From assembly GCA_018266755.1 (NCBI GenBank), contig JAFDZW010000005.1, forward strand, positions 186,001 to 250,000: a stretch of 64,000 nt of DNA, given 5' to 3'. The notes under the pieces were generated by a model that was given only the letters and a program-made list of their open reading frames with translations, did no database searches and had not been told where the DNA came from. This DNA is from Bacteroidota bacterium. GTDB taxonomy: Bacteria > Bacteroidota > Ignavibacteria > Palsa-1295. This document shows positions 1,282 to 51,763 of the stretch, one piece after another. The first letter of the stretch is position 1. The number at the start of each line of letters is the position of its first letter. The translations under genes were made by a program, and so were the position numbers.

Positions 1282-1461
1282 TTACAGTTCGGTCACTTCG
1301 ACGAGATGCTGAACGACACGGATCATGCCACGGATGGCTGGCGTGTCATTCTTCTCGACGACGTAGTTCGGACGACCGAGGCCGAGGGCCTTGATCGTAC
1401 GCTTCTGATTGACGAGCGTATCGTTGATGCTCTTGGTCTGTTTGATCTTCAGCTTCTTCAT
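1282..1461 (-). CDS. rpmD: 50S ribosomal protein L30
   Basis: Small large-subunit protein L30, 59 residues from the ATG at 1461 (MKKLKIKQTKS). The frame extends 7 codons further to an ATG at 1482 that overlaps the end of rpsE. I prefer 1461 because an AAAGG ribosome binding site lies about 8 bases before it and because the family begins at this point. The internal KRTIKALGLGR and final VxHLVEV segments are diagnostic. It is 17 bases after rpsE. Confidence 0.93.
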   Translation of the reverse strand: MKKLKIKQTKSINDTLVNQKRTIKALGLGRPNYVVEKNDTPAIRGMIRVVQHLVEVTEL

Positions 1462-1478
1462 TGACGTCCCTTTCGCGA

Positions 1479-1982
1479 TCAACCGTTGAACACTTTTGAA
1501 AGCGGAATACCGCGGCGCGATGCAACCGAATGCGCATCCGAGATCTGCTCGAGTGCATGCATCGTCGCCTTCACGAGGTTGTGCGGGTTCGACGAACCCT
1601 GTGACTTCGTGAGAATGTCCTGCACGCCGGCGAGCTCGAGCACGGCACGGACGCCGCCACCGGCGATGAGACCGGTACCCGGCGATGCCGGTTTGAGCAT
1701 GACCTTACCGGCGCCGAACTTGCCGAACACCGTATGCGGGATCGTTCCCTTGCGCAACGGCACGATGCGCACGTTACGCTTCGCGTCTTCCGTCGCCTTG
1801 CTGACGGCATCGGTCACTTCGTTCGACTTTCCCAAGCCGATACCGACGTGTCCGTTCCCGTCGCCCACTGCAACGATCGCGTTGAAGCTGAATCGACGAC
1901 CGCCTTTGACCACCTTCGCAACGCGGTTGACAGCGACCAGCTTATCTTTCAAATTCAACTCGGATGTACGTACTTTCGCCAC
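1479..1982 (-). CDS. rpsE: 30S ribosomal protein S5
   Basis: Small-subunit protein S5, 167 residues, involved in decoding accuracy and mRNA unwinding. The N-terminal double-stranded RNA-binding fold is seen in [20 protein letters not shown] and [18 protein letters not shown]. The C-terminal domain contains [19 protein letters not shown]. Gene order rplR-rpsE-rpmD is canonical, with 21 bases separating it from rplR. Confidence 0.97.
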
Positions 1983-2003
1983 GATCTTCCTCAGTGGTTA
2001 TGA

Positions 2004-2366
2004 TTAAAATTCCAAACCGCCTTCGCGGGCTGCATCTGCAAGCGCTTTCACGCGGCCGTGGTAGAGGTATCCGTTACGGTCGAAGACGACCTTGGTAATC
2101 CCCTTTTCCTTCGCAAGCGACGCAATCTGCTTGCCGACGGCGACCGACTTATCGGTCTTCTTCAACTTCTCAGCGATCTTCTGCGATCCGACCGATGCAA
2201 GGGTAAAGCCCTTGGAGTCATCGACCAGCTGCGCATAAATATCGGCATTCGAGCGGAAGACGACCAAACGCGGACGCTCGCTCGTCCCGCGCACCTTCGC
2301 ACGGATCGCGTAGCGGCGGCGTACACGACGCGCCGTCTTTGCCTGTAACTGGATCTTCGTTGCCAT
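2004..2366 (-). CDS. rplR: 50S ribosomal protein L18
   Basis: 5S rRNA-binding protein L18, 120 residues, the standard length. The basic N-terminus ([20 protein letters not shown]) contacts 5S rRNA; the conserved [10 protein letters not shown] and [20 protein letters not shown] segments are clear. It is 18 bases after rplF. Confidence 0.97.
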
Positions 2367-2384
2367 ACGCTGTTCTTCTAACGA

Positions 2385-2924
2385 TTATTTGCCTGCAGTC
2401 TTACCAGCCTTGCGGATGATCTTTTCATCGGAATACTTCACGCCCTTGCCCTTATACGGCTCCGGCGGACGGATCGAGCGGATCTTCGCTGCGACAGCAC
2501 CAACGAGCTGCTTGTCGATGCCACTGATCGTAAGCGACGTCGGAGTCGGGATATCGATCGTAATCTCGTCCGGAGCGCCAAAGACGACCGGGTGCGAGAA
2601 TCCGAGGCTGAGCTGAATCCACTTGCCGCGCTTCTCGGCCTTGTATCCAACGCCGACCATCTCCAATTTCTTGGTGTACCCTTCGCTGACGCCGACAACC
2701 ATGTTGTTCGTGAGCGCACGGGCAAGCCCGTGGAGTGCACGGATGCTGCGCTCGTCGCTGGAGCGAGTGAAGGTGATCTCACCGTTCTCGATTTTCGGTG
2801 TGATCGAAGCCGGGATCGCCGTAGCCAGCGTACCCTTCGGTCCTTTCACCGTGATCGTGCTGTCTTTCAGCTCGGCGGTGACGCCTTTCGGCAGTGTAAT
2901 AATCTTCTTTCCGATACGTGACAT
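2385..2924 (-). CDS. rplF: 50S ribosomal protein L6
   Basis: Large-subunit protein L6 near the factor-binding site, 179 residues. Two homologous domains are visible: MSRIGKKIITLPKGV with GPKGTL in the first, and the C-terminal signature PPEPYKGKGVKYSDEKI in the second. It follows rpsH after 31 bases. Confidence 0.97.
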   Translation of the reverse strand: MSRIGKKIITLPKGVTAELKDSTITVKGPKGTLATAIPASITPKIENGEITFTRSSDERSIRALHGLARALTNNMVVGVSEGYTKKLEMVGVGYKAEKRGKWIQLSLGFSHPVVFGAPDEITIDIPTPTSLTISGIDKQLVGAVAAKIRSIRPPEPYKGKGVKYSDEKIIRKAGKTAGK

Positions 2925-2955
2925 AGTCGTTCTTCCTACACCTGTTCAGATGAGC

Positions 2956-3342
2956 TTACCATACGTAGCACAATACCTCGCCACCAACGTTGAGTTGGCG
3001 CGCCTGCTTATCGCTCATCACGCCACGGGGCGTCGAGAGGATAGCGATACCAAGCCCTGAGAGTACGCGCGGCGTATCAGTGGCCTTAGTATAGCGACGG
3101 AGCCCCGGTGTCGAGATACGACGTAGTCCCATGATGGCCGGAACGCCGTTCTGATACTTGAGCGTGATGCGCAATTCGCCTTGCTTCGAATTCTCGATGC
3201 GCTCAACACTATCGATATACCCCTGCTCCTGCAGGATCGTGCTGATCGCATACTTCAGGTTCGACGCCGGTACAATGACGTACTGGTGCCGGGCCTTGAT
3301 GGCGTTACGCAACCGTGTTAAGAAATCTCCTATCGTATCCAT
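2956..3342 (-). CDS. rpsH: 30S ribosomal protein S8
   Basis: Primary 16S rRNA-binding protein S8, 128 residues. Begins MDTIGDFLTRLRNAIKARHQ and ends with the GEVLCYVW signature preceded by GIAILSTPRGVMSDKQAR. In Escherichia coli S8 represses the spc operon by binding its mRNA. Here the 74-base gap in front of rpsH is the longest between rpsJ and secY and contains a small GC hairpin (3370-3383), a possible but unproven regulatory element. Confidence 0.97.
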   Translation of the reverse strand: MDTIGDFLTRLRNAIKARHQYVIVPASNLKYAISTILQEQGYIDSVERIENSKQGELRITLKYQNGVPAIMGLRRISTPGLRRYTKATDTPRVLSGLGIAILSTPRGVMSDKQARQLNVGGEVLCYVW

Positions 3343-3369
3343 ATCAACTCTCTACTGAAAACTATACTG

Positions 3370-3383
3370 CCCGTCGCAACGGG
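3370..3383 (-). other. Small GC hairpin between rpsN and rpsH
   Basis: A 5-base-pair perfect stem (CCCGT/ACGGG) with a four-base loop lies in the rpsN-rpsH gap. There is no following U-tract, so it is not a normal terminator. It could be an mRNA processing signal or part of an autoregulatory site. The stem is short enough to be chance. Confidence 0.3.
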
Positions 3384-3416
3384 ATGTGAATAGAGTCTGA
3401 AGCGTTTCGAACGTTC

Positions 3417-3602
3417 TTACCAGCTCGCCTTGCGCAATCCGGGGATCTTGCCGTCGAGTGCCAATTCGCGCAAACACAGACGGCACAGGCCGAACTTGCG
3501 GTATACGCTATGCGCCCTGCCGCAGCGGCTGCAGCGGGTGTACTTTCTGGTCGAGAACTTCGGCTCGCGCTTCTGCTTGACTCGTAATGCTAATCGTGCC
3601 AC
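3417..3602 (-). CDS. rpsN: 30S ribosomal protein S14, zinc-binding type
   Basis: Small-subunit protein S14 of the short zinc-ribbon type (61 residues) rather than the long Cys-less type of about 100. The four metal ligands are C24, C27, C40 and C43 (CSRC and CRLC). The C-terminus [18 protein letters not shown] is typical. Translation begins at a GTG at 3602, 23 bases after rplE; no in-frame ATG exists upstream and no strong Shine-Dalgarno sequence is visible, so it may be coupled to rplE. Confidence 0.95.
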
Positions 3603-3625
3603 GTTATTTCTACGTTTGTGAACGG

Positions 3626-4270
3626 TTACGCTGTTGCCACTGCTTCACCTTCGCGCTTACGGAACGGAAGACCAAAGGCCTTCAGAAGCTCGTACGCTTC
3701 TTCATCCGTGGTTGCACTGGTGACAAAACTGATATCCATACCCGTAATACGCGACACCTTATCGACGTCGATTTCCGGGAAGATGATCTGCTCTTTGATC
3801 CCGAGCGTGTAGTTGCCACGACCGTCGAACGACTTATCGGGTACGCCGCGGAAATCGCGGATACGCGGGATGGCAAGCGACATCAATCGATCGAGAAACT
3901 CATACATACGATCGCGGCGTAAGGTGACGCGTGCACCGATGCTGAGTCCTTCGCGAAGCTTGAAGTTCGAAATGGACTTCTTCGCTTTCGTCACCGCAAC
4001 CTTCTGGCCGACGATCGCTTCGAGATCGCGAACAGCCGCTTCGAGCTGCTTTGCGTCGGACGCTGCTTCGCCAACGCCGACATTGACCGAGATCTTCGTC
4101 AGGCGCGGAACCTGGTTGATGTTCGTGTAATTGAAGCGCTTCATCATCGCCGGGACGACTTCGTTCTTATACTTGTCGTGCAGGCGAGCATGTACACCCT
4201 CTACCGCGGGATCCGTCGGAGCCGAGGCTGCGGGTGCTGCTTTTTGCTTTTGTTCTTTTGCTTTTGCCAT
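3626..4270 (-). CDS. rplE: 50S ribosomal protein L5 with Ala/Lys-rich N-terminal tail
   Basis: 5S rRNA-binding protein L5. From the ATG at 4270 it has 214 residues, longer than the usual 180 or so because of an N-terminal Lys/Ala/Pro tail of about 30 residues ([20 protein letters not shown]). The L5 core follows ([53 protein letters not shown]). A TTG at 4309 would add 13 residues ([13 protein letters not shown]), but ATG is preferred. The 47-base gap to rplX contains no other gene. Confidence 0.95.
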
Positions 4271-4317
4271 TGCTGTAGTCGTTCTCGTATTGACGATAGT
4301 TGCCGTCAAAACACTTG

Positions 4318-4641
4318 TTATGCGATCACATCGCCCGAGCGACGCGACACACGCTCATAGACTGCCTTACCGGTGCTGTCGGCGCTGACACGGCGACCGA
4401 TACGCGTGGTCTTCCCGGATTTCGGATCGACGAGCATGACATTCGATGCATTGATCGGATGCTCGCGCTCGGTAATCCCACCCTGCTGGTTCGCCTGGGT
4501 CGGACGTTCGTGCTTCTTCAGGATATTGACCCCCTCGACAAGCACGCGATTGGTTTCATTGAACACGCGCAAGACCTTCCCGCGGCGGCCGCGGTTCTTG
4601 CCGGTGATCACTTCCACAAGGTCGTTCTTCTTGATACGCAT
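4318..4641 (-). CDS. rplX: 50S ribosomal protein L24
   Basis: Assembly-initiator protein L24, 107 residues. The KOW motif is at the N-terminus ([20 protein letters not shown]), followed by [20 protein letters not shown] and a C-terminal zone with [17 protein letters not shown]. It starts 11 bases after rplN. Confidence 0.97.
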
Positions 4642-4652
4642 AGGTGCTCCTC

Positions 4653-5021
4653 TTAGATGACTTCAGGGGCAAGTGAAACGATCTTCATATACTGACGCTC
4701 GCGAAGCTCGCGTGCGACGGGTCCGAAGATGCGGGTTCCGCGCGGCTCGCCTTGGTTGTTGAGCAGTACGACCGCATTCTCATCGAAGCGGATATAGCTG
4801 CCGTCGCGGCGACGCGTTTCCTTCTTGGTGCGAACGATCACCGCCTTCGAGACTTCGCCCTTCTTCACCTGGCCGTTCGGAATTGCAGACTTCACACTGA
4901 CGACGATCACGTCGCCTACACCGGCGTAGCGACGATCATGACCACCGAGGATACGAATGCAACGCACTCGCTTGGCCCCGGAGTTGTCCGCTACTTGCAG
5001 ATTCGATTCTTCCTGAATCAT
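4653..5021 (-). CDS. rplN: 50S ribosomal protein L14
   Basis: Large-subunit interface protein L14, 122 residues, standard length. [20 protein letters not shown] opens the protein and [20 protein letters not shown] closes it. It marks the start of the spc part of the cluster, 44 bases after rpsQ. Confidence 0.98.
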
Positions 5022-5065
5022 TACTTCCTCGCTCTAGAAAATGTGCTTCGATTACCGATCCGTAC

Positions 5066-5347
5066 TTATTTCGCGCGCTCGATGACTTCGACCACGCGCC
5101 AGCGCTTCGTCTTCGACAGCGGACGGGTCTCCATAATGCGGACGGTATCGCCCGTCTTCGCATCGTCATTCTCGTTGTGCGCAACGAACTTCGTCGTCTT
5201 CTTGAAGTACTTTTTGTACTTCGCATGTGCGACCTGGCGCACCTGCTCGACGACAACGGTCTTTTGCATCTTGTCGCTAACGACCTTCCCGATACGTTCC
5301 TTGCGTCGGTTACGCGCGGGGCTTGTCATGATCTCGTTCTCTGCCAT
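5066..5347 (-). CDS. rpsQ: 30S ribosomal protein S17
   Basis: Small-subunit protein S17, 93 residues. The OB-fold core [20 protein letters not shown] and the later [20 protein letters not shown] are diagnostic. An alternative ATG at residue 7 would remove a short acidic extension (MAENEI). It follows rpmC by 24 bases. Confidence 0.96.
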
Positions 5348-5371
5348 ACGATCGTAGTCTTACTAAGATGG

Positions 5372-5584
5372 TTACTTTGCACGTGCGGCGTTCTCGCGCT
5401 CGCCGATGATCGTTTTGATGCGAGCGTTATCGCGACGCAACGTTGCGATCTGCGCATTGTTGTCGAGATGGCCCGTCATCTTCTGAAAGTTCAGCGCGAT
5501 CAGGCGCGAATTGTTCTCGCCGATCTGACGCTTCAAGTCGGCGATATCACGGCCGCGAAGTTCTGATGCTTTAGTTGCCTTCAT
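5372..5584 (-). CDS. rpmC: 50S ribosomal protein L29
   Basis: Helical hairpin protein L29 at the polypeptide exit, 70 residues. The family pattern ELRGRDIADLKRQI and ARIKTIIGERE is visible. A GAAAGGACGACC ribosome-binding stretch precedes the ATG at 5584. Spacing to rplP is 15 bases. Confidence 0.95.
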   Translation of the reverse strand: MKATKASELRGRDIADLKRQIGENNSRLIALNFQKMTGHLDNNAQIATLRRDNARIKTIIGERENAARAK

Positions 5585-5599
5585 TGGTCGTCCTTTCGC

Positions 5600-6037
5600 T
5601 TACTTACGTACTGCTACTTCTTCGACATGATCCGGACGCGTGACCATCTTGGTCATCACCGGAAGCTTATGCGAACTCAGGCGCAATGCTTCTTCCGCGA
5701 TCGCCTTCGGTACGCCGCCGATTTCGAACATGATCGTACCGGGTTTTACCACGGCTACCCAGTATTCCGGGGTACCCTTACCGGATCCCATTCGCGTTTC
5801 AGCAGGCTTTTTGGTGATCGGCTTATCGGGGAAGATCCGAATCCAGATCTTACCATCGCGCTTCATCGTACGCGAAAGCGTGACGCGAACCGCCTCGATC
5901 TGACGGCTGGTAATCCACCCACCTTCGAGCGACTTCAAGCCGAAACTGCCGAATGCAACCTGGGCTCCACGCGTGGCCTTGCCACGAACTCTGCCCTTTT
6001 GGCGCTTGCGATACTTAACTCTCTTTGGTAACAGCAT
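5600..6037 (-). CDS. rplP: 50S ribosomal protein L16
   Basis: Large-subunit protein L16 at the A-site, 145 residues. Signature segments: [58 protein letters not shown] and [20 protein letters not shown]. Canonical position between rpsC and rpmC. Confidence 0.98.
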
Positions 6038-6063
6038 TGCCGATTACTCCGAAAAAATCTTGC

Positions 6064-6858
6064 TTACTCTGCCGATGACGATTCGGACGAACCGCCTTCC
6101 TTACCACGCGTACGACCACGGCCGCCGCGACGACGACGGCGCTCGCCGCCTGCCGCGCTCACGATCGGACGACGATCGCGATCCTCGGCGCCATAGACTG
6201 CCAACTGTGCCGCAGCCTCAAGTGGCGTTTCGCCGGTAATGTCTCCGGTACACACCCATACCTTCACGCCGATGGCACCGTAGATCGTCTGTGCCGTACC
6301 ACGTGCAAAGTCGATGTTCGCACGCAAAGTGTGAAGCGGAATACGTCCTTCCTTGTACTGCTCGGTACGCGCAATTTCAGCGCCACCCAAACGGCCCGCG
6401 CACATCACGCGTATTCCTTCTGCGCCGGAACGCATGGCGGTCGCGACAGCCATTTTCATGGCGCGGCGGAAGGCGATACGACCCTCGAGCTGCTGAGCGA
6501 TCTGGTCGGCGATCAACTGTGCGTCGATCTCCGGACGCTTCACCTCGTTGATGAGGATCTTCACTTCCTTGCCCGAGCACACATTCTTCAACTCTTCTTC
6601 GAGCTGTGCAATCTCTTTGCCGCTCTTACCGATAACGACACCGGGACGCGATGTGTGGATCGTCAAGACGATACGCTTCGTCGTCCGATCGATCGTCATC
6701 TTCGAGATGCCGGCACGGCGCAAACGCTCCTTGATGTACTTACGGATAAGATTATCCTCTTCGAGCTTCTGCGCGAAGTTCTTGTCATCGTACCAGCGCG
6801 CATCCCACGGACGCGTCACAGCGATACGGAATCCGACCGGGTTAGTTTTCTGCCCCAA
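6064..6858 (-). CDS. rpsC: 30S ribosomal protein S3 with RG-rich tail
   Basis: Small-subunit protein S3 at the mRNA entry, 264 residues. Begins MGQKTNPVGFRIAVTRPWDA; the KH domain has VVIGKSGKEIAQLEEEL, and the C-terminal domain has GRLGGAEIARTEQYKEGRIP. After the core there is a tail of about 35 residues, first Arg/Gly rich (ERRRRRGGRGRTRGKEGG) and then Ser/Glu rich, longer than in the commonest S3 proteins. It lies 41 bases after rplV. Confidence 0.97.
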   Translation of the reverse strand: MGQKTNPVGFRIAVTRPWDARWYDDKNFAQKLEEDNLIRKYIKERLRRAGISKMTIDRTTKRIVLTIHTSRPGVVIGKSGKEIAQLEEELKNVCSGKEVKILINEVKRPEIDAQLIADQIAQQLEGRIAFRRAMKMAVATAMRSGAEGIRVMCAGRLGGAEIARTEQYKEGRIPLHTLRANIDFARGTAQTIYGAIGVKVWVCTGDITGETPLEAAAQLAVYGAEDRDRRPIVSAAGGERRRRRGGRGRTRGKEGGSSESSSAE

Positions 6859-6899
6859 GGTACTTGCGAGTTAAGTGAACGTGAACAGTACTTACAATC

Positions 6900-7355
6900 T
6901 TACTTAGCGGCTGCCTTCTTCTTACGGGCAGGGGCTTTCTTTGCCGGCTTCGCAGGCGCAGCAGCTTGAGCAGCCGATGCAGCAGCAGCGGCACGACGTG
7001 CAACCTTCGCAGCCTTATCGCTGACGACGATCGTCAGGTGATTCGAGCGCTTGCGCACACGGTATGCGCGCCCCATCGGAGCAGGCATGATGCGCTTGAG
7101 CACCGGTCCGCCGTCGGAGAAACACTCGCTGACGGTCAGATCTTCGACATCGATTCCGCGATTTTCGTCTTTTAACTGAAAGTTCGCGATCGCGCTACGA
7201 AGCGTCTGCTCGGCGACGAACGATGCCTTGTTGGTCATGAAGTGCAGAATCGAGAGCGCTTCCGTGACTTTCTTGCCACGAATGTTATCGAGCACCAGTC
7301 GCATTTTGACCGGTGAGCTCTGGATGCCGCGTTTACGTGCGATTGCTTGAGCCAT
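6900..7355 (-). CDS. rplV: 50S ribosomal protein L22 with Ala/Lys tail
   Basis: Exit-tunnel protein L22, 151 residues, against about 110-120 in most bacteria. The core is evident (GIQSSPVKMRLVLDNIRGKK; ILHFMTNKASFVAEQTLRSA; MPAPMGRAYRVRKRSNHLTI). The extra length is a C-terminal Ala/Lys/Pro low-complexity tail of about 35 residues ending in ARKKKAAAK, compositionally like the tail of L5 in the same operon. Confidence 0.96.
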   Translation of the reverse strand: MAQAIARKRGIQSSPVKMRLVLDNIRGKKVTEALSILHFMTNKASFVAEQTLRSAIANFQLKDENRGIDVEDLTVSECFSDGGPVLKRIMPAPMGRAYRVRKRSNHLTIVVSDKAAKVARRAAAAASAAQAAAPAKPAKKAPARKKKAAAK

Positions 7356-7373
7356 TGAGATCGTCTCCCTTTA

Positions 7374-7649
7374 TCAGGCGTTTTCCGATTTAGTGCCCGA
7401 GTGTCCGCGGAAGCTCCGCGTCGGTGCGAATTCTCCGAGTTTGTGGCCGACCATATTCTCGGTCACATACACGGGGATAAACTTATTCCCATTGTGTACG
7501 GTGAAGGTGTGTCCGACGAATTCCGGCGGAATCGTGCAAGCACGAGCCCACGTCTTGATTACCTTCTTTGCACGAGTAGCATTGAGCGCATCAACCTTGC
7601 CCATGAGCTTCTCGTCGATATACGGTCCCTTTTTCAGCGAACGTGACAT
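7374..7649 (-). CDS. rpsS: 30S ribosomal protein S19
   Basis: Small-subunit head protein S19, 91 residues. [40 protein letters not shown] and [20 protein letters not shown] are family signatures. Only 7 bases separate it from rplB. Confidence 0.98.
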
Positions 7650-7656
7650 ATGCTAC

Positions 7657-8493
7657 TTATTTCGTGCGACGTTTGACAATGAACTGATTCGAAGCATTCT
7701 TCTTGCGACGGGTACGAAGACCTTTGGCAAGCTGACCCCACGGTGACTTCGGATGCTTACGACCACCACCCGACTTCGACTTACCTTCACCACCACCCAT
7801 CGGGTGATCGACCGGGTTCATCGCCATACCGCGTGTCTGCGGACGAATACCGAGCCAGCGCGAGCGACCGGCTTTGCCGAAACTGATATTGAAGTAGTCG
7901 GCATTTCCAACGGTTCCGACGGTTGCGATACAATCGATCGGTACCTTACGCATTTCGCCCGAAGGCATCTTCAGCGTCGCAAAATCGCCTTCCTTTGCAA
8001 GCACCTGGCACGAGTTGCCTGCCGAACGAGCGATCTGACCGCCACGACCCGGCTTCATCTCCACGTTGTGGATAAACGTACCGAGCGGCATCGACTTTAA
8101 CGGAAGCGAATTGCCTGGGGCAATATCGGCATCCTTGCCACTAAGAATCTTTGCACCGACATTCAAACCGTCGGGAGCAATGATATAGCGCTTCTCGCCA
8201 TCGGCGTAGTGCAGAAGGGCGATACGGCAGTTGCGGTTCGGATCGTATTCGATCGAGGCGACCGTTGCCGGCACATCGAACTTATTACGCTTAAAATCGA
8301 TCACGCGGTACATCTTCTTATGTCCGCCGCCGCGGTGACGCGAGGTCACGCGACCGGTATTCCCGCGCCCGCCCGAACTCTTGAGCGGCGTCAGAAGCGA
8401 CTTTTCCGGAGTCGTCTTCGTGATCTCGTCGAACGAAGAGATCGAGTAGTATCTCGTCGCCGGAGTTCTTGGTTTAAGATTTCTGATTGCCAT
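7657..8493 (-). CDS. rplB: 50S ribosomal protein L2
   Basis: Peptidyl-transferase-centre protein L2, 278 residues, standard length. Recognised by [20 protein letters not shown], the [20 protein letters not shown] segment and the conserved C-terminal [17 protein letters not shown]-type stretch (here with [20 protein letters not shown]), which carries the histidine important for activity. Confidence 0.98.
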
Positions 8494-8540
8494 GTCTTGC
8501 TATATGCTTTCGATTGACTTCTCGCCTCAATCGGGCTTAA

Positions 8541-8849
8541 TTACTCTGGGGTCTTTACATCCATCGGCGTGAAGACGTCGATCGTCTGTCCGGCCTTGAG
8601 TGCAACGACTGCCTTCTTACGACGACTCTTCGCTCCACGAACGACACCGCGACGGGTGAACTGCGAACGCGTACGCGTCGGCATCCACATCGTACGAACT
8701 TCTACGACATTCACTCCGAACTGTGCTTCGACCGCATGTGCGATCTGAATCTTATTCGCGCCCGGATTGACTTCGAACGAATAGACTCCGTTCTCACTTG
8801 CGAGCGTTGCCTTTTCGGTCAGGAGCGGCTTGCGGATCACTACTTCCAT
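8541..8849 (-). CDS. rplW: 50S ribosomal protein L23
   Basis: Exit-tunnel protein L23, docking site for trigger factor and SRP, 102 residues. Begins MEVVIRKPLLTEKATLASEN; contains FEVNPGANKIQIAHAVEAQF and VVEVRTMWMPTR. It follows rplD by 17 bases. Confidence 0.97.
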   Translation of the reverse strand: MEVVIRKPLLTEKATLASENGVYSFEVNPGANKIQIAHAVEAQFGVNVVEVRTMWMPTRTRSQFTRRGVVRGAKSRRKKAVVALKAGQTIDVFTPMDVKTPE

Positions 8850-30562: not shown

Positions 30563-30658
30563 ATGCCAAGCGGAAAGAAGCGCAAGCGTCATAAAATGGC
30601 GACCCACAAGAGGAAGAAACGTCTTCGCATGAATCGTCATAAGAAGAAAGTGCGCTAA
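30563..30658 (+). CDS. 31-residue highly basic protein, COX24/AURKAIP1-like
   Basis: A tiny frame (MPSGKKRKRHKMATHKRKKR...) of 31 residues, over half Lys, Arg or His, with no acidic residues. I recall near-identical small proteins annotated as AURKAIP1/COX24-domain in Bacteroidota; related mitochondrial proteins are small-ribosomal-subunit components, so a ribosome-associated role is likely. It is a stand-alone gene in its own 261-base space and is followed 31 bases later by a terminator. That isolated promoter-gene-terminator arrangement supports it being real. Confidence 0.85.
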   Translation: MPSGKKRKRHKMATHKRKKRLRMNRHKKKVR

Positions 30659-30772: not shown

Positions 30773-32809
30773 CTATTCTTCGTCCGGCGTGAATTGGTTA
30801 CCGATGTTGTCGTTGTCTTGCGACTGATTGAATCGGCGCCCCCGGTTTTGGTCATACCCGCCACCACCTTGGTAACCGCCACCTCCACGCTGGGGTCCGC
30901 GGCCATACCCGCCGCCGCCCTGGTTGTAGCCGCCGCCATCCTGCTGGCGAGGACGATATCCTCCACCTCCGCCGCCTTGGTAGCCGCCACCGCCGCGTTG
31001 CGGCCCGCGGCCGTAACCGCCACCGCCCTGGTTATACCCTCCGCCGCCTTGATTGTAGCCGCCACCGCCGCGCTGTCCGCCGCCGTAGCCGCCACCCTGA
31101 TTGTAGCCTGAGTTTCTGGGTTGATAACCACCGCCGCCACCGCGCGGCTGGTAACCTCCGCCACCGCCTTGATTATAGCGTTGTCCATACCCGCCACCAC
31201 CCTGACGCGGTTGATACCCTTGGTTCGGGTTGTACCCACCGCCGCCCTGACGTGGCTGATATCCTCCGCCACCGCCCTGCTGCGGACCACGATCGTAGTT
31301 AGGATTGCGAGTCTGGAATACCGGCACGACACGGCGTGGGCTGCGCTGTTGGTATCCTCCGCCTCCACCTTGCTGGTATCCACCTCCGCCGCCCTGATTG
31401 TAGCCACCGCCACGTTGCTGCGGTGCGTACGGACGACGTCCCTGTCCGCCTCCGAAACCTCCCTGACGTGGGCCACCGGGACCTCGTTGCTGGTATCCAC
31501 CTCCGCCGCGCTGCTGGGGCGGTCCGTTCCAACGGCCACGTTGGAAGGACATCCGCTGCTGCATCTTCTGCATGCGCTTCATCTTCTTGCGCATTGCTTT
31601 CACACGCTTGCGGCGCTCCTGCTGAGTCTTCGAATTCGGATCCTTGCTCTGCCCCTTCGGCTTCTTCATCGTCTTCTTCGGGGGCACGACCGGGTACCAG
31701 TGCAAGTCATCGACCATTGCCTGTGCACGAGCGGGCTCTGCGATAAACTTTTCGGTATCGACGCCGGCAACTTCATCGGCAAGCAACTTGCCTGCAAGCA
31801 CCGAGGCAGCAAGCGAAGAAGTACCCATGACATAGTCGTCCGCGAGATAGATATTTGCGCCACCGAGCTTTACCTTCTGCACATCGCCGGACTTGAACGG
31901 GGTGTGCTTCAGGATTCCACTATGCCACCGCTTGATTTCGCTATAATTCATCTCGGGCAGCGCGAGGTCGAGCACCTGCTCGAAGACACGCTCGATGACT
32001 GCGTAGGCAACATTGTCATCCTTGTCAATGCATTCCTTGCTGGCATCGGCGCCAAGCTGGAGGTAGAACGCATTCTCGCCTTTGTACACGCCGAGTTTGC
32101 GCTTCTTCTGCTCGCGAGAGAGCCACATCACCGGCGCGGTCGCGTCGGTCGCATACACTGTAGAAAAACCGATGTTCATTTTCAACCGCGAAACACCGAA
32201 CACAGCACCAACCGTGGGCGCGTAATCGACGTCGCCAAGCAGCGAACAGAGCTTCTTGATCGTCCGCGACTCCCCTTCATGCGGTTGCAACAGTTTCTGC
32301 GCGTCGGAGGCCGGAAGTGCAAGAACGAGGGTCGAAGTCTCGTGTTTCTCTCCGCGCTGGTTCTTCAGCGTAATCGTCTTGTCACCCGGCAGGAGGTGGC
32401 TGATACGCGAATGCGTCCGGACCGGGATCTCGTGCACAATCGCTTCAGCGAGCGCCTTCATGCCGCCGTCAAGATAGTACCATTCAGGATCGACACGATG
32501 CGCGGTCGCGATCGATCGTCCGTCAAATTCCAGGATGTCGTTCGGGAGCCGCTTCAGTTGCGGCAACGCGCCTCGTTCGGCAAGAATCTTTCGAAGCAAT
32601 TCCCGCCCCTTTTGTTCGGTCTTGTCCGAAGTCTCTCCGAGTTCGATGCGCTGTGTCCCGATATCGATCGTACGGTATCCGAGGTTATGCGTCGTGGACC
32701 GACCGCCGAGCCCTCGGGACCATTCGTAAAGCGTCACGTCTTTGCCCGCTCGATGAAGGAGATATGCAGCGACCAGTCCGGTATATCCGCCGCCTACAAT
32801 AGTTATCAT
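30773..32809 (-). CDS. FAD-dependent amine-oxidase/PPOX-like flavoprotein with RGG/GGY low-complexity tail
   Basis: A 678-residue protein in two unlike halves. Residues 1-350 are a flavoprotein of the amine oxidase/protoporphyrinogen oxidase/renalase superfamily: dinucleotide fold MITIVGGGYTGLVAAYLLHR, the LYEWSRGLGGRSTT motif, and the C-terminal FAD-contact YLADDYVMGTSSLAASVLAG. Residues about 378-423 are a strongly basic helix (RRKRVKAMRKKMKRMQKMQQ). Residues 424-665 are RGG, GGY, YNQ and YQPR repeats, then a short acidic end. Start at 32809 is favoured by AAAGGA seven bases upstream; an upstream GTG would begin within that site. Substrate is unknown. A link to heme synthesis is possible by family only. 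Confidence 0.88.
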   Translation of the reverse strand: MITIVGGGYTGLVAAYLLHRAGKDVTLYEWSRGLGGRSTTHNLGYRTIDIGTQRIELGETSDKTEQKGRELLRKILAERGALPQLKRLPNDILEFDGRSIATAHRVDPEWYYLDGGMKALAEAIVHEIPVRTHSRISHLLPGDKTITLKNQRGEKHETSTLVLALPASDAQKLLQPHEGESRTIKKLCSLLGDVDYAPTVGAVFGVSRLKMNIGFSTVYATDATAPVMWLSREQKKRKLGVYKGENAFYLQLGADASKECIDKDDNVAYAVIERVFEQVLDLALPEMNYSEIKRWHSGILKHTPFKSGDVQKVKLGGANIYLADDYVMGTSSLAASVLAGKLLADEVAGVDTEKFIAEPARAQAMVDDLHWYPVVPPKKTMKKPKGQSKDPNSKTQQERRKRVKAMRKKMKRMQKMQQRMSFQRGRWNGPPQQRGGGGYQQRGPGGPRQGGFGGGQGRRPYAPQQRGGGYNQGGGGGYQQGGGGGYQQRSPRRVVPVFQTRNPNYDRGPQQGGGGGYQPRQGGGGYNPNQGYQPRQGGGGYGQRYNQGGGGGYQPRGGGGGYQPRNSGYNQGGGYGGGQRGGGGYNQGGGGYNQGGGGYGRGPQRGGGGYQGGGGGGYRPRQQDGGGYNQGGGGYGRGPQRGGGGYQGGGGYDQNRGRRFNQSQDNDNIGNQFTPDEE
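30815..31540 (-). repeat. Low-complexity repeat DNA encoding the RGG/GGY tail
   Basis: Degenerate short repeats of GGN GGN TAY and CGN GGN units encode about 240 residues almost wholly of Gly, Tyr, Gln, Arg, Asn and Pro. The repetition is at codon level and imperfect, suggesting expansion by slippage followed by drift, and this stretch is a likely site of length variation between strains. Confidence 0.85.
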
Positions 32810-33166
32810 TTGTGTTCCTTTCACGTTTCCAGTGTGGAATGATGTTCAGTTAGACCCCACGATGTAGCCCGTTAACGTCAGTAGTTGAAGAAGTCCCGGC
32901 AACTATGTGTCCATGTGTTTCGACCAATATGACCCTGTATCGCGACGTGTCCCGTCAGCATGTACAGATTCTTCGTTTCACATGTGACACTGTACCAGTG
33001 AGTACGGATACGGTGCTTCTTTTCGCTTTCTTGCTTGTCAACGTATCGTCATCCGTGAGAAAGACGACGATGGTTAATAGTGTATGAATACAAGCTCAGA
33101 GGTACAATTGCATTTGAGAAAACATACGTGGTTGGCAATACAATAACCCACGTACCAACCCTCTGG

Positions 33167-36146: not shown

Positions 36147-37196
36147 TCAGTTTCTCGGTACATGCCACCACCCGAAGTATATCATTGCGCCGACATTCAG
36201 ATGGGTAAACGTAATAGGATCGCCACCGGTCTGGAAATCGAACTGTGGTTGTTGCTTATCCCCACTGAGCAGGAATGTTGCAGAGATATCGGCAAACGGC
36301 GAGAGTATAAAATTATCCCCGAGCTCAAGATCATAACGAGCGCCAAACATCCCCTTGATCCCGCCACGTGTGAACGATGCGCTCACCGTTTTTGAATCCG
36401 AATGAACGCCGAGCGAATCGACCGCATAATAGCTCTGCTTGCTTTCGATCGTCGTGCTGTTATACCCAAGTCCGAGATAAAATTTTACCGGAGAGTGAGG
36501 GTTGATCACAAAGTGAACATCGAACGCGATATACTTCGTCGTGATATCTTCATGTGTCGGCACGTAGTACGGAAATTTGGTAGGCGGTTTGAGCGGATCG
36601 AATTTATCGACGTAGGACGAATCCTCTTGCCTCCACAACCGATCGTTTATAAGGTCGTCCCCGACATTGAATCGGTTGTATGAAATCTGAAAGTCAATTC
36701 CCCTCGTAATCGAAGTCCCGATTGATAACGAGGAAGCAAAGACTGATGTTGGAGTAAGTTGCACTCGATTTAGCTGATTGAGCTCCGAGAGATTTCCGAT
36801 TCCGATTCCCCCACCAATCCCGATCGCTTTCCAGACGATCGGAGTGAGCGCCTTTTGTCGTGCGCGTTCCTCGTCCTGGATGCGTTCGACTGCACGCAAA
36901 CTATCGCGACGTGTCTGTTCCTGTGCCTCTCGCAGTGCTTGCTGCTGCGCTTCATACGCCGCTCGAATCGAATCTTGACGTCTGACTTCCTGCTCTTTGG
37001 AGAGCTGCTCCCGTTGCCGTCTGATCATCTCCTCTGCCTCACGACGCTGCTGCGTCATGACAGAATCCGGCGGACGGCTTCCGGGTTGGGCATGCGATGT
37101 CCCTGTCATCGCACATAATAACATCAGTAGGATGACGAGAGCCGGTGGCAAGCTCAGGCGAAATAATTTCTTCGTATTCTCCGTCGTTTGATTCAT
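36147..37196 (-). other. Alternative internal start for the outer membrane part of the TatD fusion
   Basis: An ATG at 37196, in frame, gives a 349-residue protein that starts MNQTTENTKKLFRLSLPPAL and has an ordinary signal peptide (basic n-region, hydrophobic core, cleavage near SHAQ). The TatD C-terminal helix would thus double as the signal-peptide n-region. No strong ribosome binding site is visible before it. This is the reading that makes topological sense for the coiled-coil and barrel domain. Confidence 0.45.
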
Positions 37197-37922
37197 GATC
37201 TCAGATACATCCATATTCTTGAGCGCGGCAATCTTCTCGGCGACCAACCGAACAAGTGCCGGCGTGTTGCGCTTTCCTCTCATCGGCGCGGGCGCCAGAT
37301 ACGGCGAATCCGTCTCTATGAGCATCGCTTCGAGAGGCGTCGCCTGCACAGTCGGTGCAAGCGTCGAATTCTTAAACGTGATATTTCCCGTAAAACTTAC
37401 AGCAAATCCTAACTCTACAACCTCGGCCGCCTGCTCCGGAGTGCCCGTAAAGCAATGGAATTGACCGAATTGATCTTCCGCGCCTCTGCCCGAGTACTGT
37501 TCCCGCACGATGGCAATCGTATCGTCGATAGAATCGCGAGTATGAATAATAATCGGCTTGTGCAACGATTTCGCGAGCTCGATCTGCTCCGAAAAGGCCC
37601 GGATTTGAACGTCACGAGGCGAGAAATCATAGTAATAGTCCAACCCAATCTCGCCAACTGCAACGACATTCTCATTTTTGGACGCCAACGCAATGGTATC
37701 GCGAACCTCGTCATTCCATTCCGTCGCAGAGTGTGGGTGAATCCCCAGACCGCACCACACATTCGGAAATCGGTTCGCCAGTTCGATCGTCGCATCGAAA
37801 CTTGCCAGGTCGATCGCAGGCACGATGAATCCGGCAACCCCCTGCTGCATCGCATCCGCGATCACAAGGTCACGATCCGGATCGAACTGATCCGTCTGTA
37901 AATGGCAATGCGAATCGATCAT
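36147..37922 (-). CDS. In-frame fusion: TatD-type metal nuclease plus secreted coiled-coil/outer membrane barrel protein
   Basis: A 591-residue frame with two parts that belong in different compartments. Residues 1-255 are a complete TatD-family metal-dependent DNase: HxH at 5-7 (DSHCHL), E91 (VGEIGLDYY), H127 (IIIHTRD), H156 (QFHCFTG) and D205 (ETDSPYLAP), ending in ENTKKLFRL as TatD proteins normally do. Directly after it comes a signal-peptide-like segment (LPPALVILLMLLCAMTGTSH), then a charged coiled-coil (about 287-358) and a beta-barrel domain ending in IYFGWWHVPRN. Either this is a true fusion, a lost stop codon or assembly error, or the barrel is translated separately from an internal ATG at 37196. 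The ATG at 37922 follows the TonB receptor stop by five bases. Confidence 0.85.
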   Translation of the reverse strand: MIDSHCHLQTDQFDPDRDLVIADAMQQGVAGFIVPAIDLASFDATIELANRFPNVWCGLGIHPHSATEWNDEVRDTIALASKNENVVAVGEIGLDYYYDFSPRDVQIRAFSEQIELAKSLHKPIIIHTRDSIDDTIAIVREQYSGRGAEDQFGQFHCFTGTPEQAAEVVELGFAVSFTGNITFKNSTLAPTVQATPLEAMLIETDSPYLAPAPMRGKRNTPALVRLVAEKIAALKNMDVSEIMNQTTENTKKLFRLSLPPALVILLMLLCAMTGTSHAQPGSRPPDSVMTQQRREAEEMIRRQREQLSKEQEVRRQDSIRAAYEAQQQALREAQEQTRRDSLRAVERIQDEERARQKALTPIVWKAIGIGGGIGIGNLSELNQLNRVQLTPTSVFASSLSIGTSITRGIDFQISYNRFNVGDDLINDRLWRQEDSSYVDKFDPLKPPTKFPYYVPTHEDITTKYIAFDVHFVINPHSPVKFYLGLGYNSTTIESKQSYYAVDSLGVHSDSKTVSASFTRGGIKGMFGARYDLELGDNFILSPFADISATFLLSGDKQQPQFDFQTGGDPITFTHLNVGAMIYFGWWHVPRN

Positions 37923-37927
37923 GTGGT

Positions 37928-40108
37928 TCAAAATGCGGTCTCTATACGAACAGAGTAACTTCTGAGGGGGGCTACGTTTCCTACAATCTCTACGTAATAA
38001 TAATTCAGAAGATTCTCTACCTGAAAGGTCAATTTTGCAGGCAATCCGGTGACATCTTGCATATCTCGGCTAATACGGGCGTCCAGAACGTAGGCATTTA
38101 CTCGCGCGCCGCCATCCGGCACTTGACGGGAAAGAACGGAGTCGACCGATTCATACTGGCTCACGTACCGGAAATCGGCTGAGCCTTCCCATTTCCCCCA
38201 TTGCGTCCCTAATCGTGTCTGTAGGAGATGCCGCGGACGATATTCAAGGATTGCGTTGGTCTGACGATTTCGCGGATACACATAGGTATACGCTAGTCGC
38301 GCGGAAAGCTCGTCATTAGAAAAAGGATGCCATTCGATCGCTTCCTCGTGCCCGAATATATCTGCATCGGTAATGTTCTGAAACTGGATGTACGAAGCAG
38401 ATGAGCCGGTTACAAATGTCGGCTCGATCAGATGTTGAAATCGTGTATAAAAGATTGCGGCATCGACAAAAAGATTCTGCCCACGATATGAGCCACCGAT
38501 TTCCGACGAGAGGCTTCGCTCGGGTACAAGCAACGGGTTTGGCCGTACCGGGAAGACCCCGAACACTTGATCGATATATTGCTCGCTGATCGTTGGCGCA
38601 CGAAAGCCGCTCCCGATCGATCCACGCATCGAAATATGCTCATCAACGGCATAACTCACGCCGAGCTTCGGTGAGACCTGTGTCAGCCAATTTTGAGCAT
38701 CATGCCGAATTGCATCCGCACGAAAGCCCGTGGTTACGATCGCGGGGGAAATATGCCATTCGGCCTGGGCATACCCCGAAATCGATACACCGGAGTGATC
38801 GGTGAATAGGTCGGAGGTAACACGTTGATACGAGCCGATCGCTCCAGCGGTCAGGTAGAGGCTGCTAAGATCGGTGTTCAGATCATACTCGCCCGTTGTA
38901 TTCAATGCCGACGAATGCGCACCCGGCTGGCCGCCGGGTACGGAAGGATCCGTTGTAAACTGTGTATGATACAGATCGAGACGGAATGTGTGGGAAACCG
39001 CATCCGAGAGCAGTTCAATACTCGACTGCACGTTCTCTTTCGCAGAATGAATACGCCCATTCACTACACCGAGTGAATCTGCAGGAAGCAATGGAGTCGA
39101 TAATCCCTTCCAGTATAACCATCCCCCATGGTTCTCGTTTGCTGCAAGCAAACTCGTTGTCCAGGTAGCGGCACCACCAAGTGGGACGGATGCCTTTGCA
39201 AAACCATTCACCTTATAGGAGTCATCGCCTAAACGGTACCCCTCGTTCCGCCGCACGGCGAGGGTGCCAAGTAACCCAATCTGGCCTACAGTGCCGGAAG
39301 CACCGACCTCTCCGGATGCGAACTTCGAGCCAACGGTCGGAACACGCCACTCGCTGTATTTCGGTTGATCGTAGATTCCGCCCAATACGACCGCGCCAAT
39401 ACTTAACGTATCGCTCGTCGGACGAGTGATCACGTTAATTATCCCACCGAGCGCGCTCGATCCGTACAATGCAGAGCCTGCCCCTTTAACAACTTCGATG
39501 CGGTCAATATCTAACAACGGGACAACATCGAACTTGATATCGCCATTATCCGCCGCGAGCAGCGGCATGCCGTCAAGCATGAACAATACGCGCGAACCTA
39601 CCCCTCTGCCATATCCCGATGACCCTCTTATATTTACTTGCGATTCAGTGACGCTCACACCCGGTATCCAACGAAGTGCATCGTCAACGGCGATGCTCCC
39701 GCGAGATGTTAGCTCTGCTGCTGTGGCGGTACTCACCGAAACGGGGACGTCTTGCGATAGTGTCGTATGCCGTTGGGCAGTGACGACAACCTCGTCCATT
39801 CGGCCACCGACCGGTTGAAGTTCGATCGCCCGGAAGAGAACGTGGCCGATCGCGAAGACGGTATCGGCATAACCGAGACCGGAGATGTGAATATAGGCCG
39901 CTCCAATAGAAAGCGGGAAATCATAGCGACCATCTGTTGAAGTGGGTCGAACATGGATTCGCTGGTGGTCGGCGGTTTCAATTGCGACCGTCAACCCCAC
40001 AACCGGAGCTTTTGTATGTGCGTCGATCACAACACCTTGAATCCGCTCTTGGGCACGTACAAGAGCAGCCGAAATCAACATGAACGATATGATCAACCAC
40101 CACTTCAT
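37928..40108 (-). CDS. TonB-dependent outer membrane receptor
   Basis: A 726-residue receptor. Signal peptide MKWWLIISFMLISAALVRAQ; then a carboxypeptidase-regulatory-like domain (IQGVVIDAHTKAPVVGLTVA), the TonB box area (MDEVVVTAQRH), a plug domain (GVSVTESQVNIRGSSGYGRG; DRIEVVKGAGSALYGSSALG; GIINVITRP) and a 22-strand-type barrel ending in a terminal aromatic residue (SVRIETAF). It overlaps the preceding lipoprotein gene by four bases (ATGA). Substrate is unknown; size and plug are of the vitamin/siderophore class rather than SusC. No cobalamin riboswitch is seen upstream. Confidence 0.93.
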   Translation of the reverse strand: MKWWLIISFMLISAALVRAQERIQGVVIDAHTKAPVVGLTVAIETADHQRIHVRPTSTDGRYDFPLSIGAAYIHISGLGYADTVFAIGHVLFRAIELQPVGGRMDEVVVTAQRHTTLSQDVPVSVSTATAAELTSRGSIAVDDALRWIPGVSVTESQVNIRGSSGYGRGVGSRVLFMLDGMPLLAADNGDIKFDVVPLLDIDRIEVVKGAGSALYGSSALGGIINVITRPTSDTLSIGAVVLGGIYDQPKYSEWRVPTVGSKFASGEVGASGTVGQIGLLGTLAVRRNEGYRLGDDSYKVNGFAKASVPLGGAATWTTSLLAANENHGGWLYWKGLSTPLLPADSLGVVNGRIHSAKENVQSSIELLSDAVSHTFRLDLYHTQFTTDPSVPGGQPGAHSSALNTTGEYDLNTDLSSLYLTAGAIGSYQRVTSDLFTDHSGVSISGYAQAEWHISPAIVTTGFRADAIRHDAQNWLTQVSPKLGVSYAVDEHISMRGSIGSGFRAPTISEQYIDQVFGVFPVRPNPLLVPERSLSSEIGGSYRGQNLFVDAAIFYTRFQHLIEPTFVTGSSASYIQFQNITDADIFGHEEAIEWHPFSNDELSARLAYTYVYPRNRQTNAILEYRPRHLLQTRLGTQWGKWEGSADFRYVSQYESVDSVLSRQVPDGGARVNAYVLDARISRDMQDVTGLPAKLTFQVENLLNYYYVEIVGNVAPLRSYSVRIETAF

Positions 40109-49329: not shown

Positions 49330-49889
49330 GGATTCGAGGGGCGTTTTCCATCCCATGCATGCTCTTGTACGCCGAGCCGATGGTTAGCATAGCGTGCAAG
49401 AACAAAAAATAGATCGGAAAGCCGATTTACAAACGGGAGGATAAATGCTCCGATATCTTCTGTATGCATGAGCGTCACCACCTCACGTTCGGCGCGACGC
49501 GCAACCGTCCGGGCAACATGTAACTGTGCGGCCAATGGCGAACCGCCCGGCAAAATGAACTGCGTTAAGGGCTCTAGACTTTCCTCGTATTCGTCGATGA
49601 GCAATTCCAACGCCCGAATATCTTCTGCGACAACACGAGGGACATCATAACTAACCTTTGCTGAGAGTGGTGTTGCAAGATCGGCCCCTGCGACAAAGAG
49701 CAATCGTTGGATAGATACCAGGCGCGTGTTGAAGACACCACCGGTATCCAACGCCACTACAAATCCGAGGATCGAATTGAGCTCGTCTATGTCACCGTAG
49801 GCACGAATCCGTGCCGCATCTTTTCGTATTCGTCCTGCGGAAAAGAGTCCGGTCGTCCCGTCGTCACCCGTTTTTGTATAAATTTTCAT
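49320..49889 (-). CDS. Cob(I)alamin adenosyltransferase, PduO type
   Basis: Transfers adenosyl from ATP to cob(I)alamin, making coenzyme B12; 189 residues from the ATG at 49889. The N-terminal ATP-binding motif is KIYTKTGDDGTTGLFSAGRI; the central VAGADLATP-type segment and the C-terminal ARTVARRAEREVV and LPFVNRLSDLFFVLARYAN are diagnostic. The ATG overlaps the mntH-type stop by four bases. The open frame further upstream is not coding. Its presence implies adenosylcobalamin-dependent enzymes in this organism. Confidence 0.95.
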   Translation of the reverse strand: MKIYTKTGDDGTTGLFSAGRIRKDAARIRAYGDIDELNSILGFVVALDTGGVFNTRLVSIQRLLFVAGADLATPLSAKVSYDVPRVVAEDIRALELLIDEYEESLEPLTQFILPGGSPLAAQLHVARTVARRAEREVVTLMHTEDIGAFILPFVNRLSDLFFVLARYANHRLGVQEHAWDGKRPSNPQL

Positions 49890-51763
49890 TGTACAATGAA
49901 CAATGGAATCGAAAGTTCGTGTCGCACCGGCGAAATGGTCGCGCCGAAGAGTAGATCCTTGAAACCACGATGACCGTGCGAGCGCATTACCAACAGTTCT
50001 AACTGTTGTTCTTTTGCGATCCGCACCAGCTCGCGAGGCGGATCGCCGAAGCCGATCTTTGTCTGCACGCGAAGATCGGAAACCGTTGCCAATCGCTGCT
50101 CCCAATCGGTCATTAACTCTTCTGCCGCACGTGCGGCGCTATCGTGCGTTTGTTCGCGATGGAAGATGGTTGGTCCGCTGCCGACGACATGAATGAGAAC
50201 GAGTGTCCCACCGGGTGCGCAAAACGACCGGGCCTCGCTCACGACCCGCTCGTCATCGTCACTTCCCTCTACTGCCACTCCAACGATCCCGTAACGGTTG
50301 CCTGACTCCACGGTAGTGACCAATCTCCGCGTGCGTGCCTTGCGGGTCAAGCGTCCCGCCTGCTTGCGCAGCCAAGGTTTGACAATGATATAGGCTAGCA
50401 GAGCTACAATAGCAGCAAGAACCGGCAAGAGTATAAACCCCCACACGCGACTGCTCCCATCCGATGATAATAACGATTGCTCGAAATCGATAATATACTT
50501 GCCGTTGAGTCCGATGATTACCAGGGCCGTAAGCCATGATAATATCCTGACCCAGATCGGATTGGCAAATTCTCCCATCAAGCGCTTGTCAGCCGTGAAT
50601 TGAATCAGTGGTATCAATGCAAAAGACAATTGCAGACTGAGGACTACTTGGCTGGTCAACAACAATCCGAGCGTCGACCCATCGCCCATAATAGAAATCA
50701 CAATCACCGCTGGGATGATCGCGAGCATTCTGGTGATCAATCGACGAGCGACCGGACGAATGCGCAAGTGCAGAAACCCCTCCATTGTAATCTGGCCTGC
50801 GAGTGTGCCCGTGACCGTCGATGATTGTCCGCTCGCTAAGAGCGCCACGGCAAAGAGAATACCCGCGAACGTTGTACCAAGCAATGGCGAAAGCAGAGAG
50901 TGTGCCTGTTGGATCTCTGTAACGACCTGGGAATGTGAAAAAAATACCGTCGCAGAAAGGATAAGAATGGCGGCATTAATCAGAAACGCACCGTTGAGGG
51001 CGACAAAGGCATCGACGAGATTAAACTTGCAGGCCTCTCGCTTCCCTTCTGTTGTCTGCTCAATCTGTCGGGTTTGGACCAATGCCGAGTGAAGATACAA
51101 GTTATGTGGCATGACGGTGGCCCCGATAATGCCGATAGCAATCACAAGGCTGCCATTTGGCAAGGACGGGATTAATCCCCTGGCAATGCCTCCCCACTGT
51201 GGTTGTGCCAAAATGATCTCGATCAGAAAACACCCCCCGATCAGCACGACCAATGAAATGATTGCCCCCTCCAGTTTTCTGACTCCAAGGCGCTGCAGCC
51301 CGAGCAGTACAAATGCATCGAGGGCGGTGAGCAGTACTCCCCACAACAGTGAAAGACCGAACAATAGATTGATGGCGATGGCAGTCCCAAGTACTTCTGC
51401 AAGATCGCATGCGGCGATCGCTATTTCGCATAGAAACCACAGCGCAACTGCTACGGGCTTTGGATATTCATCTCGGCATGCTTGTGCCAGATCACGCCCC
51501 GTGACAATCCCGAGCCGAGCGGAAAGCGTCTGTAGCAGCAACGCCATGAGATTGCTCAGCAGCAACACCCATAGTAAGGCATACCCAAAGCGAGCCCCAC
51601 CTTCAAGATCGGTTGCCCAATTGCCAGGATCCATGTAGCCGACGCTTACCAAATACGCCGGCCCACCGAATGCAAGAAGCCGCCGGAAAATACTCACACC
51701 TGTCCCGGGTTTCGGGACAGCAACACTCTGATGTACCTCCGACAGTGATACCTGATCAGTCAT
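49886..51763 (-). CDS. NRAMP-family metal transporter fused to a universal stress protein domain
   Basis: A 625-residue protein. Residues 1-460 are an MntH/NRAMP proton-coupled divalent metal transporter with eleven predicted helices and both metal-site motifs: DPGN in GYMDPGNWATD and MPH in GATVMPHNLYLHSALVQ. Residues about 480-625 are a UspA-like nucleotide-binding domain (IVGVAVEGSDDDERVVSEA; LELLVMRSHGHRGFKDLLFG) with the G-x2-G-x9-G pattern only partly kept. Manganese or iron uptake with cytosolic regulation is the likely job. It overlaps its neighbours on both sides by four bases (ATGA), so a small upstream protein and PduO share its transcript. Confidence 0.94.
   Translation of the reverse strand: MTDQVSLSEVHQSVAVPKPGTGVSIFRRLLAFGGPAYLVSVGYMDPGNWATDLEGGARFGYALLWVLLLSNLMALLLQTLSARLGIVTGRDLAQACRDEYPKPVAVALWFLCEIAIAACDLAEVLGTAIAINLLFGLSLLWGVLLTALDAFVLLGLQRLGVRKLEGAIISLVVLIGGCFLIEIILAQPQWGGIARGLIPSLPNGSLVIAIGIIGATVMPHNLYLHSALVQTRQIEQTTEGKREACKFNLVDAFVALNGAFLINAAILILSATVFFSHSQVVTEIQQAHSLLSPLLGTTFAGILFAVALLASGQSSTVTGTLAGQITMEGFLHLRIRPVARRLITRMLAIIPAVIVISIMGDGSTLGLLLTSQVVLSLQLSFALIPLIQFTADKRLMGEFANPIWVRILSWLTALVIIGLNGKYIIDFEQSLLSSDGSSRVWGFILLPVLAAIVALLAYIIVKPWLRKQAGRLTRKARTRRLVTTVESGNRYGIVGVAVEGSDDDERVVSEARSFCAPGGTLVLIHVVGSGPTIFHREQTHDSAARAAEELMTDWEQRLATVSDLRVQTKIGFGDPPRELVRIAKEQQLELLVMRSHGHRGFKDLLFGATISPVRHELSIPLFIVQ

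Follow-up and report, generated by a model that had tools for sequence, protein, structure and literature searches.

RNA-binding metabolic enzymes are known from eukaryotic RNA-interactome capture. Disordered regions rich in Tyr and Gly bind RNA in hnRNPA2 (PMC9067507). Across prokaryotes, Arg was found in a survey to be enriched 10.4-fold in the low-complexity regions of PNPases and to be enriched in those of RNA-binding proteins generally (PMC6821194). In Bacteroides Rho, a long disordered region containing short conserved motifs promotes RNA-driven condensation (PMC13269538). On the enzymatic side, renalase is reported to oxidise 2- and 6-dihydroNAD(P), which are isomeric forms inhibitory to dehydrogenases (PMC5655536 and PMC7660482, citing earlier work that includes that of the Moran group and the paper on the bacterial enzyme).

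The window (the whole 64,000-nucleotide stretch of DNA analysed) contains a gene for a renalase-like flavoprotein with a long RGG/GGY tail (Table 1). A sequence-only reading of the DNA had described a complete FAD-binding domain continuing in frame into a basic helix and a FUS/hnRNP-like tail, and the open reading frame, Pfam, AlphaFold2 (AF2), and 11 orthologs bear this out: the fusion is confirmed as real, conserved, and unusual. Three terminator-like hairpin sites were found, against a mean of 2.9 in shuffles; the one following the flavoprotein stop codon has by far the longest stem of the three and is positioned at the gene end. The neighbours of the gene in the window are ruvX and spoT, while other genes adjoin the orthologs elsewhere. 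Because these neighbourhoods are not conserved, the flavoprotein gene probably forms a transcription unit by itself, and its genomic context gives no clue to a pathway. In the upstream regions of the orthologs, no conserved element was found except within the closely related pairs L003/L004 and L006/L007, and an Rfam search of the window matched a tRNA only. At two loci, and limited to these two (L126 and L127, in genomes G007 and G008 of genus g3), the gene adjoins a cluster of ribosomal protein genes that have relatives at window positions 1282-8849.

Table 1. Features of the flavoprotein gene and its flanks, in window coordinates and in the order in which the gene is read
Feature	Coordinates	Strand	Details and basis
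AAAGGA, ribosome-binding-site-like, just 5' of the ATG	32810..32825	-	Sequence
Whole gene, renalase-like flavoprotein with disordered RGG/GGY tail	30773..32809	-	678 aa + stop, ATG start; ORF and 10 further orthologs of the same architecture
FAD-binding, renalase-like putative catalytic domain, residues 1-348	31766..32809	-	Pfam, PDB profile search, AF2 + Foldseek
N-terminal Rossmann FAD motif MITIVGGGYTGL, beginning at residue 2	32774..32809	-	Sequence; G6, G8, and G11 invariant in 11 orthologs
C-terminal segment IYLADDYV, presumed FAD contact	31829..31852	-	Sequence; D325 invariant; contact judged from the fold family
Conserved extension, residues 349-377 (GxDxxxxIxxPxRxQAx...Wx..PP)	31679..31765	-	Invariant G349, D351, I356, P359, R361, Q363, W371, P376
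Predicted basic helix, residues 394-420 (KTQQERRKRVKAMRKKMKRMQKMQQRM)	31550..31630	-	AF2 helix, moderate confidence
Predicted disordered Gly/Gln/Tyr/Arg-rich RGG/GGY tail, residues 425-678	30776..31537	-	pLDDT, charge-hydropathy, conserved composition
Conserved short tail motif RRVVPVFQTRNP	31301..31336	-	Ortholog comparison; VNVYQT or VYSTNVRP in other genera
Acidic C-terminal motif DNDNIGNQ (DDDNIGNR-like in other genera)	30794..30817	-	G670 and N671 invariant
Terminator-like hairpin directly after the stop codon	30741..30768	-	12 bp stem (10 G-C); hairpin search

Three further ORFs of the window are recorded here as separate observations. A very basic 31-aa ORF (MPSGKKRKRHKMATHKRKKRLRMNRHKKKVR; 30563-30658, + strand), convergent with the flavoprotein gene, is one that we take to resemble the AURKAIP1/COX24 (mS38-like) small ribosomal protein. 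A NRAMP metal transporter carries a fused C-terminal universal stress protein domain (49886-51763, - strand), and a TatD-type DNase (residues 5-258; 36147-37931, - strand) is followed by ~330 further residues that have no Pfam match at E<=1e-5.

In both sequence and fold, the closest match of the flavoprotein is renalase, not PPOX, MAO, or CrtI. Only FAD/Rossmann families, and no RRM, were matched by Pfam (Amino_oxidase, 2.3e-15; NAD_binding_8, 1e-11). A profile of the 11 flavin domains searched against the PDB has Pseudomonas renalase 4zcc as its best match (8e-20, positions 2-302), and the next non-renalase chain, at 1.9e-07, matches the N-terminal FAD motif only. Foldseek with the AlphaFold2 model of the FAD domain (pLDDT 76.6, shallow alignment) returned bacterial renalases at ranks 1-7 (best 9.1e-22; TM-scores 0.70-0.72 by query length) and human renalase at rank 8. 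Residues G6, G8, G11, E29, G35, G36, and R37, comprising the Rossmann GxGxxG, the acidic residue, and the GGR, are invariant across the 11 orthologs. The pentapeptide NQRGE (residues 150-154; 32348-32362, - strand), situated in a predicted beta-turn of the domain, is likewise invariant in 11 of 11; conservation this strict seems unusual for a turn of that kind.

The C-terminal part of the domain has diverged. Specifically, the GDxFGx..VEGAxxSG segment of tail-less relatives is absent, and the tailed orthologs carry D[YF]xxGxxSxAxxxxGK. Because this segment is replaced, we do not file the flavoprotein as a renalase; the sequence comparisons and the structural model identify it as a divergent renalase-like protein, with a putative activity as an FAD-dependent oxidoreductase. 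Since the segment would contact FAD and differs from that of the tail-less relatives, the substrate may differ as well.

To define the range of the protein, we searched 61 related genomes, including 12 other genomes of the window's family, with the flavin domain. Orthologs are present in the window's genome and in 10 of those 12 (three genera), the two genomes without a match being 67% complete. The family consists of environmental bacteria of the Kapabacteria group. All 11 orthologs are single uninterrupted frames of 618-721 codons that end in a Gly/Arg/Gln/Tyr-rich tail, with 48-71% identity to the window protein in the enzyme domain; named records among them are Ca. Kapaibacterium, Ignavibacteriae, and Bacteroidetes/Bacteroidota MAGs. 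A search of 197 genomes of the class gave 11 matches at E<=1e-15, all in this family (f1) and none outside it, and a search of 395 genomes of the phylum gave a single partial match outside the family (3e-13). The nearest relatives elsewhere in the class (L018, L020, L013, and L014) are renalase-like proteins of 333-337 aa without a tail, with profile E values of 8e-18 to 4e-12. With L018 as query, the tailed protein is the best match, weakly, in 10 of 11 family genomes, with no better copy, and nothing was found in the window's own genome at E<=1e-6; the tailed gene thus appears to be a divergent equivalent of renalase in this family. A comparison of relatives with and without the tail had been proposed by the sequence-only reading: the tail is present in 11 of 11 orthologs of one family and the nearest relatives elsewhere in the class are tail-less, so the tail is an addition specific to this family.

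Beyond the FAD domain, the protein comprises a conserved extension, a basic helix, and the tail. The fold had been said to end cleanly at LAGKLLADEV before a linker; the FAD domain does end with these residues (338-347), but the conserved part runs on to about residue 377. Residues 347-430 carry a net charge of +10 to +17 in all orthologs. In the full-length AlphaFold2 model, residues 1-348 are folded, residues 394-420 form a helix, and residues 425-678 have a pLDDT of ~30 and no secondary structure, and a charge-hydropathy calculation likewise predicts the tail to be disordered in 11 of 11 orthologs. The composition proposed at the outset (RGG, GGGY, and YNQGG units) is found, but the emphasis shifts: the window tail (~254 residues) is rich in GGY (19) more than in RGG (6), with 11 RG and 6 YNQGG units. 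Across the 11 orthologs the tails span 180-285 residues and contain 22-43% G, 10-17% R, 8-22% Q, 4-10% Y, and almost no aliphatics, and each has 15-30 aromatic residues and 25-42 Arg; three (L008, L009, and L011) are weaker, with 1-3 GGY and 1-2 RGG each. The tails are unalignable over most of their length, retaining their composition and two short motifs: one reads VPVFQT, VNVYQT, or VYSTNVRP, and the other is the acidic C-terminal motif ending in GN(R/Q). The position of the motifs within the tail varies from genus to genus. Identity in the enzyme domain goes down to 48%, and the GC3 of the tail spans 0.33 to 0.63; because the composition has been held despite this divergence, we conclude that it is kept at the protein level.

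Tails of this type also occur on RNA proteins of the same lineage. We scanned 2.36 Mb (66%) of the window's own genome, comprising 12,246 ORFs, for RGG/GGY tails, using a score and cut-off of our own choosing. The top four ORFs of this portion are two RRM proteins, PNPase, and the flavoprotein (scores 10-20), and the fifth (score 7) is a Gly-rich ORF of another kind. All 11 genomes of the family encode RRM proteins, of which one class has GGY/RGG tails. A second RRM class (L254, L256, L261, L266, L270, L273, L274, L275, and L277) is without an RGG tail and has a conserved C-terminal T-D-x-[ST]-G-R-[ST]-Y-G-N-R-x-G-W-W. The PNPases (G000:C5:20932-23199, which is L290, and L285-L294) have an RGG-rich C-terminal tail, e.g. 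RGGDRRGGGDRDRRSGGGGRGGF, and this is present in 10 of the 10 family genomes with a readable PNPase C-terminus.

The occurrence of the same tail type on RRM proteins and PNPase indirectly supports an association of the flavoprotein with RNA. The argument is one of guilt by composition, drawn from four ORFs in two thirds of one genome with conservation in relatives added. We infer by analogy that the enzyme is attached to RNA through its tail and its basic helix, and it is fairly probable that the protein is a renalase-like oxidoreductase fused to a permanent nucleic-acid-association tail, for which tethering to RNA is the best-supported function. In particular, the basic helix and the Arg/Tyr/Gly-rich tail would bind RNA multivalently, with little sequence specificity, and would hold the enzyme at RNA, at ribosomes, or in RNP condensates alongside the RRM proteins and PNPase; the FAD domain would perform its redox reaction there, by analogy with renalase on dihydro-nicotinamide species; and the VxVYxT and acidic DDxxGN[RQ] motifs could serve as docking points for a partner. 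Condensation of the tailed flavoprotein is possible, given the numbers of aromatic and Arg residues in the tails, and Bacteroides Rho is a precedent for a bacterial disordered region that condenses with RNA. Against an RNA tether, the protein lacks a folded RNA-binding domain; true RGG units number no more than 6 in the window protein, and L008, L009, and L011 have few GGY and RGG units, so that a generic spacer of Gly, Gln, and Arg is another way to read the tail. In a bolder and less likely version, which we offer tentatively, the oxidoreductase would be a stable component of RNP granules, sharing the tail grammar of RRM proteins and PNPase, and would carry out redox chemistry or NAD(H) repair on RNA or coupled to it, in the extreme on nicotinamide-capped RNA.

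The tail might instead bind proteins or self-assemble, acting as a scaffold that clusters the flavoenzyme into a condensate or holds it to a partner through VxVYxT and DDxxGN[RQ]. Its aromatic and Arg residues are the sticker types of FUS-like proteins, and the conservation of short motifs within an otherwise unalignable tail fits such a role; but RNA-binding proteins encoded in these genomes have this composition too, and the strong net positive charge of helix and tail favours a polyanion as partner. We consider this reading unlikely; scaffolding and RNA binding do not exclude each other.

That the flavoenzyme acts on RNA itself, with the tail delivering a substrate such as nicotinamide-dinucleotide (NADH-type) 5' caps or other modified RNA, is improbable. 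The use of isomeric dihydro-NAD(P) by renalase, as reported in the citing passages of PMC5655536 and PMC7660482, and the RNA-binding type of the tail composition are consistent with it, but the proposal is speculation from chemistry, and the neighbourhoods compared show no link to RNA-modification genes.

A single-stranded-DNA role, in which a Gly/Gln/Tyr-rich linker and an acidic tip would work as in SSB, is highly improbable. G, Q, and Y are enriched in low-complexity regions of ssDNA-binding proteins (PMC6821194) and the tail does end in an acidic patch, but the flavoprotein has neither an OB fold nor a PF tip (its tip being DNDNIGNQ or DDDNIGNR). The family's main SSBs have short linkers, canonical DLPF tips, and no RGG repeats, on which grounds we rejected an SSB-type linker.

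Surface attachment and a self-assembling matrix, the alternatives put forward by the sequence-only reading, fare worse. Gly/Tyr/Gln-rich composition resembles that of some structural extracellular proteins, but a secreted or surface adhesive or matrix protein is very hard to reconcile with a Rossmann motif that starts at residue 2, before which a signal peptide would have no space, and the proteins of the genome that share the tail type are cytosolic RNA proteins.

The least probable explanation, an artefact in which a frameshift, repeat expansion, or mis-assembly joined the enzyme to a repeat ORF, or in which the tail is under neutral drift, could appeal to the compositional bias of the tail DNA and to a long antisense ORF overlapping the gene (31121-32842, + strand), but we rule it out because all 11 orthologs, in separate genomes, have an open frame with the tail and without stops, synonymous codons in the window gene are diverse, with Gly encoded by all four of its codons (44 GGC, 28 GGT, 22 GGA, and 8 GGG), Tandem Repeats Finder detects a single weak 21-bp repeat of 2.5 copies in the gene, the C-terminal motif is conserved, and the terminator-like hairpin follows right after the stop codon. 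The tail is thus not a product of chance or slippage, and neither a frameshift nor a loss of the tail in close relatives, the two outcomes that would have spoken against the original description, is seen in the DNA.

To our knowledge, a FUS-like tail dedicated to RNA association has not been described before on a metabolic flavoenzyme of bacteria. The literature searched contained no redox enzyme of bacteria with a dedicated, conserved tail of the RGG/GGY type, and a search for Kapabacteria plus RNA-binding returned nothing. If the tail binds RNA, it would connect RNA in bacteria with the redox chemistry of nicotinamide and flavin, and one lineage would use one tail type on RRM proteins, PNPase, and an enzyme, a proposal that simple truncations can test. 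The family also offers a natural bacterial test case for Tyr/Arg/Gly disordered regions kept by selection on composition and short motifs.

Compared with bacterial renalase (Pseudomonas, PDB 4zcc/4zcd/5krq and 3kkj), the flavoprotein shares an FAD-binding fold of ~340 aa and the SRGxGGR and DxGxQ motifs, but is only ~22% identical, has a diverged C-terminal FAD-contact segment, and carries ~330 extra residues that include the basic helix and the disordered tail. The tail-less relatives L018, L020, L013, and L014 have the superfamily domain in common with it but, unlike it, carry the classical DHG[AT]Q and GDxFG...VEGA motifs and end without a tail. The RGG and F/YGG regions of FUS and hnRNPA resemble the tail in their Gly/Tyr/Gln/Arg composition and their GGY and RGG units; the flavoprotein has no RRM or zinc finger, and the likeness is a compositional analogy, not homology. 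Bacteroides Rho is an RNA enzyme whose region is KE-rich and prion-like, whereas the flavoprotein tail is of the RGG/GGY type. Within the same genomes, the Gly-rich RRM proteins have the same kind of GGY/RGG C-terminal tail, but possess an RRM and much shorter tails, whereas the flavoprotein has no RRM and a tail of 180-285 residues. PNPase is, like the flavoprotein, an enzyme with a family-conserved C-terminal RGG-rich extension, but it is a known RNA enzyme, and its tail is shorter, D/R-rich, and without Tyr/Gln repeats. The original judgement that such a tail is unusual on a bacterial enzyme holds in this form: bacteria were already known to have RGG/GGY tails, on PNPase and Gly-rich RRM proteins, and it is the attachment of such a tail to an oxidoreductase that is unusual.
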